A DNA stretch of 64,000 nt, from assembly GCF_014701195.1 (NCBI RefSeq), contig NZ_AP018712.1, positions 2,188,501-2,252,500 on the forward strand, in the 5' to 3' direction. The translations under genes and the position numbers were made by a program. Below are positions 13,394-37,066 of this stretch, piece after piece. Under the pieces are notes generated by a model, which had not been told where the DNA came from, ran no database searches, and saw nothing but the letters and a program-made list of their open reading frames with translations. The stretch's first letter is position 1. Each line of letters opens with the position of its first letter. The DNA is from Tepiditoga spiralis. GTDB taxonomy: Bacteria; Thermotogota; Thermotogae; Petrotogales; Petrotogaceae.

Positions 13394-14350
13394 TTGAAAT
13401 ATAACATTAAAGTTAATATTCCAAATGGAATAGAACCAGTAGAAATTTTAGGTGTTCACAACAATAAAGTAAGATATATCAAAAAATATTTTGATGTTGA
13501 AATAAAGTATGAAAACTTAAATATTTTGATAAATTCTAATAAGAAAGAAGAACTTAAAACTGTAGAAAAAATAATAAAGGAAGTTTTAGATGTAATATTA
13601 TTAAAAAAAACTATTGAATGGAGTGAATTTATATATATAGTATCTAAACAAGTTCAAAAAAACAGTATGTCAATGAAAAATATAGTTAATACTACAATAA
13701 ATGGAGTTAAAATTTCTGCAAAAACAGAAGGACAAGCAAAATATATAGAAAATTTAAAAAAATATGATATGCTTTTTTCAATTGGACCAGCAGGTACTGG
13801 AAAAACATATCTTGCAGTTGCAATGGCAGTTAAAAGCTTAAAGATGGGAGAAGTACAAAGAATAATTTTAACAAGACCTGCAGTTGAAGCTGGAGAAAAA
13901 TTAGGATTTTTACCAGGAACACTTTATGATAAAATTGATCCATATTTAAAACCCTTATACGATTCTTTAATGGACTTTATAGGAACAGAAAATTTAATTC
14001 AATATAAAGAAAAAGGTATAATTGAAATAGTACCACTTGCATATATGAGAGGAAGAACCTTAAATAATTCTTATGTTATATTAGATGAAGCGCAAAATTC
14101 AACTTATCAACAAATGAAAATGTTTTTAACGAGAATTGGATTTAATTCTAAAGTTGTAGTTACAGGAGATATAACACAAATAGATTTAGAAAAGAAAAAA
14201 GAATCAGGACTTCTTGCTATAACAAAAATATTAAAAGACATTGAAGAGATAAAAATAACTTATTTAAATAAAAACGATGTAGTTAGAAACCCAATGGTGA
14301 AAAAAATAATTCAGGCATATGAAATATATGAAAACAAAAAGGAGAATTAA
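13394..14350 (+). CDS. PhoH-family ATPase (YbeZ-like)
   Basis: This 318-residue protein has a KH-like N-terminal region and a PhoH P-loop domain: Walker A GPAGTGKT, then LTRPAVEAGEKLGFLPG, then Walker B VILDEAQN and the sensor-like VVTGDITQIDL. PhoH/YbeZ proteins are helicase-like ATPases functionally tied to YbeY in rRNA processing and RNA decay, and ybeY lies two genes downstream here. The start is TTG at 13394 with a perfect AGGAGG. It is divergent from pelD. Confidence 0.95.
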   Translation: MKYNIKVNIPNGIEPVEILGVHNNKVRYIKKYFDVEIKYENLNILINSNKKEELKTVEKIIKEVLDVILLKKTIEWSEFIYIVSKQVQKNSMSMKNIVNTTINGVKISAKTEGQAKYIENLKKYDMLFSIGPAGTGKTYLAVAMAVKSLKMGEVQRIILTRPAVEAGEKLGFLPGTLYDKIDPYLKPLYDSLMDFIGTENLIQYKEKGIIEIVPLAYMRGRTLNNSYVILDEAQNSTYQQMKMFLTRIGFNSKVVVTGDITQIDLEKKKESGLLAITKILKDIEEIKITYLNKNDVVRNPMVKKIIQAYEIYENKKEN

Positions 14351-18015: not shown

Positions 18016-20844
18016 TCATTTTATTATTAATTCTTTTAAATATTTTCCAGTATAACTTTTTTGATTTTTAATTATTTCTTGTGGAGTACCAACTGCAATT
18101 ATTTCACCACCATCTTCTCCACCTTCTGGTCCTAAATCTATTATATAATCAGCATTTTTTATTATATCTAAATTATGTTCTATTATTATTACAGTATTAC
18201 CTTTTTCAACCAATAAATTTAAAACTGAAATTAATTTTCTAACATCTTCAAAATGAAGTCCCGTTGTTGGTTCATCTAAAATATAGATAGTTCTTCCTGT
18301 ATCTCTTTTTTTCAATTCTGAAGTTAACTTTATTCTTTGAGCTTCTCCCCCAGACAATGTAGTTGCAGGTTGTCCTAATTTTATATATCCAAGTCCAACC
18401 TCTTGTAATAAATTTAAAGTTTTCTTTATTGAAGAGATATTTTTAAAAAAGTCTGCTGCTTCATCTACAGTCATATTCAAAATATCAGAAATATTTTTCC
18501 CCTTATAAGTTACTTTTAAAGTTTCTTTGTTATATCTTTTACCTTTACATACATCGCAAGTAACATACACATCAGATAAAAATTGCATATCTATTTTTAT
18601 TACACCATGACCAGCACAAGCTTCACAACGACCACCTTTCACATTAAAACTAAACCTTCCCTTTGTATATCCACGAATTCTTGCTTCAGGTGTTTGAGAA
18701 AAAACATCTCTAATAGTATCAAAAATTTTTGTATAAGTTGCAGGATTACTTCTTGGTGTTCTGCCAATGGGCGACTGATCAATAGAAATTATATTATCTA
18801 AATTTTCAAGGCCAATAATATCTTTAAAATCTCCGTGCCTTGCTCTTGTTTTTCTCAATTTTTTTAAAAGAGCAGGATATAATGTATCCATTATTAAAGA
18901 AGACTTTCCTGAACCAGAAACACCTGTAACTACAACTAATTTTCCTAAAGGAATTTCAACATCTATATCTTTTAAATTGTTGTGCTTGGCTCCAAGTATT
19001 TTTATACTTTTATTTAAGTCAACTCTATTTTTTTCAAAAATTTCAACCTTTCTCTTTCCAGAAACATATTGAGCTGTTAAAGATTTTCCTGGAGCATTAA
19101 GAACTCTTTTTGTACTACCTTGATAAACAACCTCACCACCATTTACACCTGCTTTTGGTCCTAGATCAACAAGATAATCAGAAGATTTTATTACTTCTTC
19201 ATCGTGTTCTACTATAATTACTGTATTTCCTAAATCTTTTAATTTTTTTAAAGTTTTTATTAATCTATCATTATCTCTTGAATGAAGACCTATAGTAGGT
19301 TCATCCAAAACATAAGTAACTCCTGTTAAACCTGATCCAATTTGAGTTGCAAGCCTTACTCTTTGAGATTCACCGCCAGATAAAGTACTTGAAGTTCTTG
19401 AAAGAGATATATACCCAAGGCCAACATCAACTAAAAATGTAACTCTTTTTTTTATTTCTAAAAGAAGCTCATCGATTATTTCTTTTTCAAAATCAGAAAA
19501 TTCTAATTTATTCAATAAATTATTTAATTTATTTAAAGGCATATTCGTTATATCATGTAAATTATATTTACCAATTCTAACATTTAAAGCATCTTTATTT
19601 AATCTTTTTCCATTACATGAATTACAAGTTCTTTGAACCATAACATTATTTTCCATCCAAGAACGCATATCAGGAGATTCTGTTTGTTTATAACGCCTCT
19701 CATACCACTTCAAAAGACCTTCAAATTTTCTTTTAAAAACATAATGTTTTCCATTTTCAGTAGATACATCAAAGGATATTTTTTCTTTTGTACCATACAT
19801 AAGCTTGTTTAAAACTTCTTCAGGAAGTTCTGAAAGCTTTTTGTTTGAAGCTTCACCATAAAACTCTATTATTTGCTTCATCATTTCAGCCATATAAGTA
19901 TCTTTTCCCATAGTTAAAATTGCACCTTCATCTATTGATTTATTAAAGTCAAAAACATATGAAGGTTCAACTTCTAATTTAAATCCTAATCCATGACATT
20001 CAGTACACGCTCCATGCGGACTATTAAATGAAAATAATTTTGGAGTTATTTCGGGAAAACTATATCCGCATTTTGGACAAGCAAGCATTTCACTAAAATC
20101 CATTGATTTTAAAGTTTTTTCGTCAATATTCATTTCTCTTATATTAACGAAACCATTTCCTTCTTTTAAAGCTAATTCAATACTTTCATATAATCTTTCA
20201 AAATTATCTTTCTTTAGCTTCATTCTATCTATCAATAAGTTTATATTATGTCTCTTTGTTTTTTTTAGTTCTGTTAAATCTTCTAATTCATATAAAATTC
20301 CATCAACTTCAACCTTTTTATATCCAGAAAGTTTCATACTTTCTATTTCTTTTTTAAATTCTCCCTTTTTTTCTTTGGCAATTGGAGAAAAAATATATAT
20401 TCTCGAATCTTCTTCAAAATTAATATAAATATTATCAACTATTTCATCAACAGTTGAACGTTCAAGTTTTGTTCCACAAGATGGACAATAAGCCTTTCCT
20501 ACTCTTGCAAATAAAACTCTTATATAATCATAAATTTCAGTTACTGTACCAACTGTTGAACGTGGATTATGACTCACTGATTTTTGTTCTATTGCTATTG
20601 CAGGTGAAAGTCCTTCAATAGATTCAACATCTGGTTTGTTTAAATTACCCAAAAACTGTCTTGCATAAGAAGAAACAGATTCTAAATATCGTCTTTGTCC
20701 TTCAGCATATATTGTATTCATGGCAAGAGTTGACTTTCCAGAACCAGATAAACCACTTATTACAGTTATTTTGTTTTTTGGAATTTTTACATCTATATTT
20801 TTTAAATTATGTTCTCGGGCACCTCTTACATTTATAAAATCCAT
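18016..20844 (-). CDS. uvrA: Excinuclease ABC subunit UvrA
   Basis: This 942-residue damage-recognition ATPase of nucleotide excision repair has two ABC modules with Walker [10 protein letters not shown] and GVSGSGKSS, and signatures [12 protein letters not shown] and [11 protein letters not shown]. Zinc-binding cysteine pairs are visible (CPSCG/CPKCG in the first half, CEACAGHG and CDVCKGKR in the second). Length and motif order are canonical. The gene stands alone, convergent with the DUF402 gene. Confidence 0.98.
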
Positions 20845-32887: not shown

Positions 32888-35521
32888 TTAAAAATTTTGA
32901 TAAAATTCTACTTGCATTTTTTGTAGTTCTTCTTCTAATGCATTTAAATAATATTGAGCTTTTTTTAAGTTAAAAGTTTTTCCACATATTTCTAATTGAT
33001 GAGCTAAATAAAAAGATTTTTTTGTACCAAGATATCCAACAGAAGACTTTAAAGAATGAGAAATTTCCTCTAATTTTTTAAAATTTCTTTCAAGTAAAGC
33101 ATTTTTTATTTCAGAAAGTATAGGCTTATAATTAGTTATAAATTCTGAAAAGATTTCTCTAAATGACTCTTTATCAAGTCCACTTCTCTCAATTCTATTT
33201 TCAAAATTATCTTCTATATGAATATTTTTAAAGTTATTTATACTTTGTTTTTTTAAGCTTGCATATTTTAATATTATATTGAACAAAGCCCTTTTACTTA
33301 TAGGCTTTACAAGATAGTCATTCATTCCATTTTTTATACATACTTCTTTATATCCTTTCATGGCATTTGCTGTTAAAGCTATAATCGGTATATTTTTATT
33401 GTGTTTTCGAATTTCTTTTGTTGCCTCAAATCCATTTAATTTAGGCATTTGTACATCCATTAATATTAAATCAAAAGGTATTTTTGAAATAAGTGAAACA
33501 GCCTCTTCGCCATCTGAAGCCATGTGTATATTAAAATTTTTATCTTTTAACATCATTTTTAATATTTTTTGATTAATATCATTGTCTTCAGCAATTAATA
33601 TAGTTATTTCAGAACTTTTTATTGTATCAATATTCAATGTATTATCTTTTTCAATGAACTTATTAGATTTTTCGATTTCAAGAACAAATTTAAAAGTACT
33701 TCCAGCATTTAAAACGCTTTCAACAATTATTTTCCCACCTAATTTTTCAATTATTTTTTTTGATATTGCAAGACCCAAGCCAGTACCGCCAAATTTTCTT
33801 GTTATTGAATTATCTGCTTGATTAAAACTTTCAAAAATTGTATTTATTTTCTCTTTTGGAATTCCTATTCCAGTATCTTTAACTTTAAATTCTAATTTAA
33901 CAGTTTTTTCATTTGATTCTAATTCATTTATTGATAAAGAAACACTACCTTCTGAAGTGAATTTAATTGCATTTGATATTAAGTTTACTAAAACTTGTTT
34001 TAATCTTGTTGGATCACTTTTTAAATTATATTTTTTACTCATATTATTTTCAAGATAAAAATTTATTCCTTTTTTATTTGCAAGAGGTCTAAAAATATTT
34101 TCAATATTTTCAAACATTATTGAAGGACTAAAATCAATAAATTCAAAACTTAAATGTCCACTTTCTATTTTTGAAAGATCTAATATGTTGTTTATTAACT
34201 CTAATAAAGTATCAGATGAACTTCTAAGTATATTAATTAGTTCTTCTTGTTCATTTGTATAATTATATTCTGATAATAATTCAATAGCTCCTATGATTGC
34301 AGATAAAGGAGTTCTTATTTCATGACTCATGTTAGCAAGAAAATTAGTTTTTAATTTTGAAGCTTCGGCTTCTTTTTTTGCAGCCATTTGTAGTTTTTTA
34401 AGAGTTAATTCTTCAGCACTTACATCTCTTCCTACACCAAATATTAGTTTTAATTCTTTAGAAGCCTTTGCTGATATTCTTAAAGGCAGATAAGTTCCAT
34501 TTTTTTTCTTCATATAAATTTTAGTGTTATTTATAAAATTTCCTTCTAAAATTTTATTATGTGTATTTTCTACAGTAATTAAATCCGAATCTTTTAAAAA
34601 ATATTTAATATTTTTATTTAATAGTTCTTCTTCTTTATATTCAAATGTATCCAATATAGATTGTGATACTTTTACTATATTTTGATTGAAATCAACTATT
34701 AATATAAAGTCTGGAGATAATTCAAATAATTTTTGAGTTATTTCCAAAAGTTTTTCTTTTTCTTTTTCAAAATTCTTTCTTTTTGAAATATCACTTAAAG
34801 TTCCTATGATTCTTATTGCTTTTAAATTTTGAGTTCTTTCAATTACTTTTCCTCGTGCTTCTATCCACTTTAAAGTTCCATTTTTCATTTTTATTTGTAT
34901 TTCACATGTAAAATCATCTGTTTTATTATTAACACAAGCATCTACTTTTTGAGATATTTTTTTTAAATCTTTTGGTGAAAATAAAGATTTCCAGTCTTTA
35001 AATTTTTCTTTTAATTCAATAATATTATAATCTAATACTTTTTCTATTGTTTTATTAAAATTAAATTCATTTTTTTCTAAGTCCCATTCCCATATTCCTT
35101 CATTAGAAGCACTCATTGCAAGATTCATTCTCTTTTGTTCTTTCCTAATTTTATTTTCTTTTTCTTTTTCATCGGTTATGTCAGATAAAATCAAAACAAA
35201 TTTATTGAAATTAATTTTATAAATTACTCCATAAGCCCATTTTTTTGTTTTTGAAAAATAAATATCTTTAACTTTTGAATATTTCATATTTTTTTCAATA
35301 TTAATTTTTAAATAATTTAATATATTTTTATTTTTTATCTTTTCGCCAAATAAAAGCTCTGCATATTCATTACAAGAAGATATTATTAATTTGTTATCTT
35401 TTTGTTTTAAGATAATTCTTCCATCAAAGTCACTCGATATTATGTTTTTAAAGAAAATTATTCTAATAAGAATATCAAAAAGTAAAACTATTAAAGTTAA
35501 TAATAAAATTATATTAATCAT
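32888..35521 (-). CDS. Hybrid sensor histidine kinase (PAS-PAS-HisKA-HATPase-REC-Hpt)
   Basis: This protein of about 877 residues (ATG 35521, GAGG eight bases upstream; an in-frame GTG at 35530 is within the ribosome site) has one N-terminal membrane segment (MINIILLLTLIVLLFDILI). At least two PAS domains follow (SNEGIWEWDLEKNEFNFNK; LSPDFILIVDFNQNIVKVSQ), then HisKA with FLANMSHEIRTPLSAIIG, HATPase (NLISNAIKFT, DTGIGIP, FGGTGLGLAISKK), REC (AEDNDINQ, LMDVQMPKLNG) and a C-terminal Hpt (SHSLKSSVGYLG). It is a complete internal phosphorelay with no response regulator next door, so its target lies elsewhere. Confidence 0.95.
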   Translation of the reverse strand: MINIILLLTLIVLLFDILIRIIFFKNIISSDFDGRIILKQKDNKLIISSCNEYAELLFGEKIKNKNILNYLKINIEKNMKYSKVKDIYFSKTKKWAYGVIYKINFNKFVLILSDITDEKEKENKIRKEQKRMNLAMSASNEGIWEWDLEKNEFNFNKTIEKVLDYNIIELKEKFKDWKSLFSPKDLKKISQKVDACVNNKTDDFTCEIQIKMKNGTLKWIEARGKVIERTQNLKAIRIIGTLSDISKRKNFEKEKEKLLEITQKLFELSPDFILIVDFNQNIVKVSQSILDTFEYKEEELLNKNIKYFLKDSDLITVENTHNKILEGNFINNTKIYMKKKNGTYLPLRISAKASKELKLIFGVGRDVSAEELTLKKLQMAAKKEAEASKLKTNFLANMSHEIRTPLSAIIGAIELLSEYNYTNEQEELINILRSSSDTLLELINNILDLSKIESGHLSFEFIDFSPSIMFENIENIFRPLANKKGINFYLENNMSKKYNLKSDPTRLKQVLVNLISNAIKFTSEGSVSLSINELESNEKTVKLEFKVKDTGIGIPKEKINTIFESFNQADNSITRKFGGTGLGLAISKKIIEKLGGKIIVESVLNAGSTFKFVLEIEKSNKFIEKDNTLNIDTIKSSEITILIAEDNDINQKILKMMLKDKNFNIHMASDGEEAVSLISKIPFDLILMDVQMPKLNGFEATKEIRKHNKNIPIIALTANAMKGYKEVCIKNGMNDYLVKPISKRALFNIILKYASLKKQSINNFKNIHIEDNFENRIERSGLDKESFREIFSEFITNYKPILSEIKNALLERNFKKLEEISHSLKSSVGYLGTKKSFYLAHQLEICGKTFNLKKAQYYLNALEEELQKMQVEFYQNF

Positions 35522-35589: not shown

Positions 35590-35618
35590 ATTATACCATA
35601 TATTCTTAATCTAATCAA
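35590..35618 (-). promoter_or_regulatory. Promoter of the hybrid kinase gene
   Basis: On the minus strand TTGATT (35618-35613), 17 bases, then TATAAT (35595-35590). It begins exactly where the T-run of the upstream small-RNA terminator ends and lies about 70 bases before the kinase start codon. Confidence 0.65.
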
Positions 35619-35722
35619 TTAAAAAAAATGCTGACATAAGTCAGCAATAGGATATATTGGGAAATTGAAGGGGATTAACCTTTTTATTCTAAATTGGGGA
35701 GTTTTTATACTTATTTAAGAAC
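35618..35722 (-). ncRNA. Candidate small regulatory RNA of about 100 nt with C-rich single-stranded motifs
   Basis: The minus strand has a promoter (see 35729-35757), about 75 bases with no ORF, and a textbook terminator: TGCTGAC, loop TTAT, GTCAGCA, T8 (35646-35621). The body is A/U-rich with three C-rich islands, ACTCCCCAA, AATCCCCTTC and TTTCCCAA, which could pair with GGGGA/GGAGG ribosome sites as RoxS/RsaE-type RNAs do. The kinase downstream has its own promoter, so this looks like an independent transcript rather than its leader. No known family is claimed. Confidence 0.6.
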
Positions 35723-35728
35723 AATTAA

Positions 35729-35757
35729 ATTATATCATATCTTTTTAATAAAATCAA
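35729..35757 (-). promoter_or_regulatory. Promoter of the candidate small RNA
   Basis: On the minus strand TTGATT (35757-35752), a 17-base spacer, then TATAAT (35734-35729). The predicted start is near 35722. It uses the same -35 hexamer and spacing as the kinase promoter 140 bases downstream. Confidence 0.65.
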
Positions 35758-35962
35758 CAAATTAATATTAATATTTTGTGAATGTTTTATAAAAATATTC
35801 ATTGTTGATTTGTTGTTTTATAATTTATTCTTAAAAATATTATAACAAATAATTTGTGCATAATATAATTAATTTGAACAACATTTAAAATCAATTTAAA
35901 CAAAATATTTTCTTTTTATGCTATAATTAAATAAATTACGTATTTCATTTTGGAGGTAAAAA

Positions 35963-37066
35963 ATGATTGATTATGAAGTTAAAGTAAAAATAGATGGACT
36001 TAAAAATAAGTTTAAAGATTTAAAAAATTTATTTAATATTGAAAAATCAAGAAATAGAGTTAAAGAATTGGAAAAAATTATGACAGATCCAAATTTTTGG
36101 AATGATTCTAAAAAAGCTGAAAGTGTTTCAAGAGAGTCACAACACCTAAAAAACGAAATAGGAGATTTTGAAGCATTAGCAAATTTATTTGATGATCTAG
36201 ATGCAGCAATAGAACTAACAGAAGAAGATTCAAGCATGGAATCTCAAATATTTGAAACACTCAATGAAATAGAAAAGAAAATAAAAGCATTTGAACTTTC
36301 AATGCTTTTATCAGGAAAGTATGACAACAATAATGTATTTCTTTCTATACATCCAGGAGCAGGTGGAACAGAATCTCAAGATTGGGCAAGTATGCTTTAT
36401 AGAATGTATGTAAGATGGTGTGAAAAAAATAAAATGAAAGTAGAAACAATAGATTATCTTGATGGAGACGAAGCGGGAATAAAAAGTGTAACAATAAAAA
36501 TTTCTGGACCATATGCTTATGGAAAACTAAAATATGAAAGTGGAGTACATAGACTAGTTAGAATTTCCCCATTCGATTCAAATGGTAGAAGACATACATC
36601 TTTTACATCTGTAAATGTTGTTCCTGAATTAAACGAAGATGTTGAAATAGAAATAAGAACAGAAGATTTAAGAATTGATACATATCGAGCAGGTGGAGCA
36701 GGAGGACAACATGTAAACAAAACAGATTCTGCTGTAAGATTAACTCATTTACCTACAGGAATAGTTGTTGCCTGTCAAAATGAAAGATCACAACATCAAA
36801 ACAAAGCAACAGCAATGAGTATGTTAAAAGCAAGACTTTATGAAATGGAAATGAGAAAAAAAATGGAAGAAAAAATGCAATTAATGGGAGATGTTAAAAA
36901 TATATCTTGGGGAAATCAAATAAGATCGTATGTATTATATCCATATCAAATGGTTAAAGATCATAGAACTTCTTATGAAACATCAGATACAGATGGAGTA
37001 TTAGACGGTACAATAGATGGGTTTATAGAATCAGAACTTTTGTACTTTGCAGAGCTTTCAAGATAA
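35963..37066 (+). CDS. prfB: Peptide chain release factor 2
   Basis: This 367-residue class I release factor carries the RF2 anticodon-like tripeptide SPF (202-204) and GGQ (247-249) in RAGGAGGQHVNK. It terminates at UGA and UAA. The whole protein reads in one frame from ATG 35963; the in-frame UGA and programmed +1 frameshift that autoregulate prfB in most bacteria are absent. TGCTATAAT (extended -10) lies at 35919-35927 and TTTTGGAGG precedes the ATG. Confidence 0.97.
   Translation: MIDYEVKVKIDGLKNKFKDLKNLFNIEKSRNRVKELEKIMTDPNFWNDSKKAESVSRESQHLKNEIGDFEALANLFDDLDAAIELTEEDSSMESQIFETLNEIEKKIKAFELSMLLSGKYDNNNVFLSIHPGAGGTESQDWASMLYRMYVRWCEKNKMKVETIDYLDGDEAGIKSVTIKISGPYAYGKLKYESGVHRLVRISPFDSNGRRHTSFTSVNVVPELNEDVEIEIRTEDLRIDTYRAGGAGGQHVNKTDSAVRLTHLPTGIVVACQNERSQHQNKATAMSMLKARLYEMEMRKKMEEKMQLMGDVKNISWGNQIRSYVLYPYQMVKDHRTSYETSDTDGVLDGTIDGFIESELLYFAELSR

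Follow-up and report, generated by a model that had tools for sequence, protein, structure and literature searches.

Genomic setting and anatomy of the candidate RNA unit

Tepiditoga spiralis sy52 is a species of the Petrotogaceae (Thermotogota) with a G+C content of 25.8% (PMC7734402). The window analyzed here is a stretch of 64,000 nucleotides that covers positions 2,188,501-2,252,500 of the single 2,502,404-bp chromosome of this marine bacterium. Coordinates are those of the window unless they are given as genome positions. Two divergent genes, prfB and a hybrid histidine kinase, enclose the region of interest, which presents the following features.

35963-37066, plus strand: prfB (peptide chain release factor 2), the divergent neighbor
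35751-35811, unstranded: possible operator, a perfect 10-bp inverted repeat AAATCAACAA / TTGTTGATTT
35729-35757, minus strand: promoter P1, assigned to the putative small RNA (boxes TTGATT and TATAAT, 17-bp spacer with TG)
35621-35722, minus strand: about 102 nt of putative non-coding RNA, from a predicted +1 G at 35722 to the T8 end at 35621
35621-35646, minus strand: intrinsic terminator, a perfect 7-bp hairpin (TGCTGAC-TTAT-GTCAGCA) followed by T8
35590-35618, minus strand: hybrid-kinase promoter P2 (boxes TTGATT and TATAAT, 17-bp spacer with TG)
32888-35521, minus strand: hybrid histidine kinase (PAS-PAS-HisKA-HATPase-REC-Hpt), ATG at 35521, preceded by AAGAGGTG

The original prediction, made from the sequence of the window, had placed a small RNA between prfB and the kinase and had given no strand. 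The placement is correct, and the strand is minus. The 17-bp-spaced TTGATT/TATAAT promoter that it described is present as P1, with its boxes at 35757-35752 and 35734-35729, the latter extended by TG. The TGCTGAC hairpin with its T8 was likewise found (hairpin 35646-35629, T run 35628-35621), and the intervening body of about 76 nt (35722-35647) presents no credible or RBS-preceded open reading frame, in agreement with the roughly 75 ORF-free bases described earlier. We infer both the start at 35722 and the end at 35621; an RNA of about 100 nt had been proposed, and the promoter-to-terminator anatomy predicts one of about 102 nt. The kinase was said to have a promoter of its own exactly after the terminator, and P2 indeed begins 3 nt beyond the T run. 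On the other side, prfB has its own TG-extended TATAAT at 35922-35927.

P1 and P2 are identical at 24 of 29 bases, and their spacers rank near the top of 97 sites in identity. This likeness makes a local duplication or a common control possible, and the sequences suggest either a local promoter duplication or a shared or related control. The arms of the inverted repeat lie at 35751-35760 (AAATCAACAA) and 35802-35811 (TTGTTGATTT), one of them over the -35 box of P1, and the repeat may be a putative operator. Only four copies occur in intergenic DNA across 864 kb, the two arms at P1 included.

Calibration of the promoter and terminator within the genome

A loose promoter scan (9 of 12 matches) returned 28 sites compared with 26.7 in shuffles, which is not above chance. 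Such a scan is uninformative in AT-rich DNA, and therefore 864 kb of the same chromosome (the window plus 40 further stretches, one third of the genome) were sampled for a stricter class of promoter. Genes in the sample were called by a simple ORF method, so the intergenic counts are approximate. Intergenic DNA (123 kb of strand-bases) contains 14 sites of the class TTG-N17(TG)-TATAAT, P1 and P2 among them, and coding DNA (1.6 Mb of strand-bases) contains 5, a 33-fold intergenic enrichment in this sample. Other sites of the class are the promoters of tRNA-Asn and tRNA-Trp, and another precedes an apparent tRNA-Ser that is cut by the end of its stretch and was identified by eye. Because the same class drives tRNA genes, transcription from P1 is credible. 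The same class also stands before a cobalamin-riboswitch-like leader (from position 18969 of the sampled stretch L208 onward), which was recognized by eye and not by a model search.

Terminator-like sites number 3 in the 3.5-kb neighborhood, compared with 0.6 in shuffles. A looser scan for promoters ahead of orphan terminators recovered tRNA-Asn, tRNA-Asp and a TPP riboswitch. The recovery of known RNA genes indicates that a promoter and terminator unit of this quality usually marks a real RNA in T. spiralis, as judged from small counts. The unit has both a promoter and an intrinsic terminator of its own ahead of the next gene, features by which an independent intergenic small RNA is recognized from sequence. 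That the RNA is likely independent, as was first proposed, is well supported by this anatomy and by the calibration on known RNA genes, which together point to a transcript of its own of about 100 nt.

C-rich islands and the proposed pairing to ribosome sites

Three C-rich islands had been reported (CTCCCC, TCCCCTTC and TTCCCA in the DNA), and all are present at the places described.

35696-35701, minus strand: C-rich island 1, CUCCCC (probability of being unpaired 0.98)
35667-35674, minus strand: C-rich island 2, UCCCCUUC (probability of being unpaired 0.60, with a weak AAGG/CCUU stem)
35658-35663, minus strand: C-rich island 3, UUCCCA (probability of being unpaired 0.85)

The claim that the islands are probably unpaired agrees with the folding model, which predicts them to be mostly so. 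Three runs of CCC or longer without GGG inside 76 nt are uncommon in this genome: of about 692 intergenic strands, 6 have them. The body as a whole (76 nt) shows no more structure than shuffled sequence (z 0.22).

The further claim, that these islands are ideal to mask GGAGG ribosome sites, finds no support beyond what base composition gives. CCUCC is absent from the RNA, whose islands are complementary to GGGGAG or GAAGGGGA, both rare at start sites: of 734 start regions, 8 contain GGGGAG and 1 contains AAGGGGA, while GGAGG is found in 275. Target prediction against ribosome sites, which had been suggested as a check, gave duplex energies to the 734 start regions equal to those of dinucleotide shuffles. 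The best energy was matched by 54 of 100 such shuffles, and the mean of the best 20 by 53 of 100. Simple shuffles and random intergenic pieces pair somewhat worse than the candidate RNA, as its C content would lead one to expect. Genome-wide, 22 sites resemble the complement of island 1, compared with 19 for the reversed control.

Conservation and origin of the locus

No DNA homologue of the candidate RNA was found in 103 Thermotogota genomes, among which there is no second Tepiditoga genome. Searches of 61 relatives together with these 103 phylum genomes gave weak matches only, mostly to the AT-rich promoter part of a longer query; five matches to the body were inspected, and none showed a comparable unit. 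Rfam gave no match at gathering or at permissive thresholds (up to E = 10). Phage DNA gave low-coverage AT-rich matches only, the paired C-island pattern was not matched in viral contigs, and plasmids gave no match. A contig scan based on prfB returned, among the matches listed, distant phyla only.

In 19 relatives from the family, the DNA just before prfB encodes the end of another gene on the same strand, apparently secA as judged by eye, with no comparably long intergenic region before prfB. Since these 19 relatives carry a same-strand gene before prfB, the junction between prfB and the kinase is specific to Tepiditoga. In T. spiralis itself, secA lies far from prfB (genome 292,767-293,891, at about 293 kb), and the neighborhood of prfB is rearranged. 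The best family homologues of the hybrid kinase share about 38-43% identity over the core, with no close orthologue. Upstream of ten kinase homologues, one region contains several CCC runs and lacks a T run, and none of the ten strongly shows CCC runs and a T run together. Judged from these comparisons, the candidate RNA element is young or fast-evolving.

The proposed independent RNA and its alternatives

The P1 transcript could instead be a leader of the kinase, its terminator acting as a conditional attenuator that passes some transcription in addition to that from P2. The kinase lies on the same strand with its start about 200 nt from P1, and the 24 of 29 bases shared by the two promoters would fit a related control as well as a local duplication. 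Against a leader, the fold of the full stretch that runs from P1 up to the kinase start gives the terminator stem a probability near 1 at both 37 and 48 degrees, and the search for an antiterminator partner upstream of the terminator found a longest pairing of 4 nt with either arm. Since the stem is almost always formed and no antiterminator was found, an independent RNA is favored over a kinase leader. The position of P2 directly 3′ of the terminator also makes the independent RNA the better reading, as it renders a leader unnecessary, and no riboswitch or leader family in Rfam matches the P1 transcript. We consider a leader rather unlikely. Neither a structured aptamer nor an alternative antiterminator pairing, the marks of a riboswitch or attenuator leader, was found: the body folds like its shuffles (z 0.22) and the longest competing pairing is 4 nt. 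That the RNA encodes a short peptide is hardly credible: the predicted 5′ end does carry an 11-codon frame that opens with TTG, but the frame has no ribosome site, no ATG or GTG lies outside the terminator hairpin, and there are stops in every frame.

An appreciable but minor chance belongs to a functionless short transcript, or to decayed sequence left where a rearrangement joined prfB to a lineage-specific kinase, with the C islands accidental. The displacement of secA, which apparently precedes prfB in the 19 relatives and sits at about 293 kb in T. spiralis, would fit such an origin, as would the low identity of the kinase homologues (about 38-43% over the core) and the lack of conservation, body structure or target signal. 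But the strong promoter and the perfect terminator are both intact and spaced as in an RNA gene, and of random decay one would expect damage to at least one of the two. The body, being single-stranded, unstructured and rich in C and U, might also bind a protein, or soak up G-rich RNAs as a sponge (decoy), in place of pairing to ribosome sites. The start-region targets, which are not above chance, would accord with this; neither a known binding motif nor a partner was found, and we give it only a slim chance.

These considerations leave the window RNA as a probable short transcript and, plausibly, an orphan small RNA of putative function. We tentatively favor, as quite possible, a free-standing non-coding RNA of about 102 nt that is transcribed by the vegetative sigma factor, terminated intrinsically, and probably aided by Hfq in trans-pairing. 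P1 would be transcribed by the vegetative sigma factor and the intrinsic terminator would end the RNA, while the kinase would be transcribed separately from P2. The mode, argued solely by analogy, would most likely be trans-acting base pairing. C-rich UCCC motifs contact ribosome sites in LhrC of Listeria (PMC4132741), and UCCC motifs do the same in RsaE/RoxS of Staphylococcus and Bacillus (PMC9217828). With this contact established in LhrC and RsaE, the same mode is the natural one to propose here. In a few mRNAs, the unpaired C-rich stretches would first touch the G-rich ribosome sites, and Hfq would probably assist the pairing through the U-rich tail of the terminator. Translation of these mRNAs would then be reduced, the targets and the effect both being putative. 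The genome encodes Hfq (at 1,565,800); we infer both the transcription of the RNA and its binding by Hfq.

A second small-RNA-like unit

A second candidate lies elsewhere on the chromosome.

13834-13930 of the sampled stretch L206 (genome about 1,073,834-1,073,930): second candidate, promoter TTGCAA-17(TG)-TATAAT

This promoter is of the same class as P1, and about 65 nt follow it, with a hairpin at the 5′ end, the unpaired sequence AAAAAUCUCCUCUUUA, and a second hairpin that forms a terminator with T8 (z -5.1). Between the two hairpins, UCUCCUCUUU is an unpaired anti-SD stretch. The segment UUUUUCACAAAAAUCUCCUCUUUA is complementary to a ribosome site together with a GTG start, and several of its weak matches elsewhere, in other genomes, are gene starts. 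Its pairing to start regions was compared with that of 30 mononucleotide shuffles by four measures, and by three of them it outdid all 30. In Rfam it has sub-threshold scores only (csRNA, Qrr). By sequence, its anti-SD fit is stronger than that of the window RNA, and it would be the better candidate of the two for SD masking. That the window RNA and this unit at about 1,073,834-1,073,930 are two of a small Hfq-dependent set of C-rich or anti-SD small RNAs in Tepiditoga, we hold to be distinctly unlikely. If true, these would be the first translational repressors of this kind described in Thermotogota, with an evolution separate from that of the UCCC small RNAs of Bacillota.

Comparison with known systems

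By itself, the window RNA is one more orphan small RNA prediction without conservation or target. Regulatory small RNAs are little described in Thermotogota, and a defined candidate in a genome that encodes Hfq would offer an entry point. RNA-seq of Thermotoga maritima gave 12-13 putative non-coding RNAs of undefined structure (PMC3636130). The candidate resembles these in being unstructured and from the same phylum (PMC3636130) and differs from them in having no homologue in the Thermotogota genomes searched.

RsaE/RoxS belongs to another phylum, and its targets are known, while the candidate has none and no Rfam match (PMC9217828). The two are alike in their repeated UCCCC seed motifs, a length of about 100 nt, and a promoter and terminator of their own (PMC9217828). 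LhrC is multicopy, presents its UCCC in stem-loops and has a proven target, whereas the candidate is single copy and without a target (PMC4132741); nor does the candidate have a sequence or Rfam match to LhrC (up to E = 10). Its motifs comprise two of the UCCCC type and one UUCCCA, with probabilities of being unpaired of 0.60-0.98. The candidate is nonetheless LhrC-like in being small and guanosine-poor, with three accessible UCCC-type sites and an intrinsic terminator in a low-GC genome (PMC4132741).
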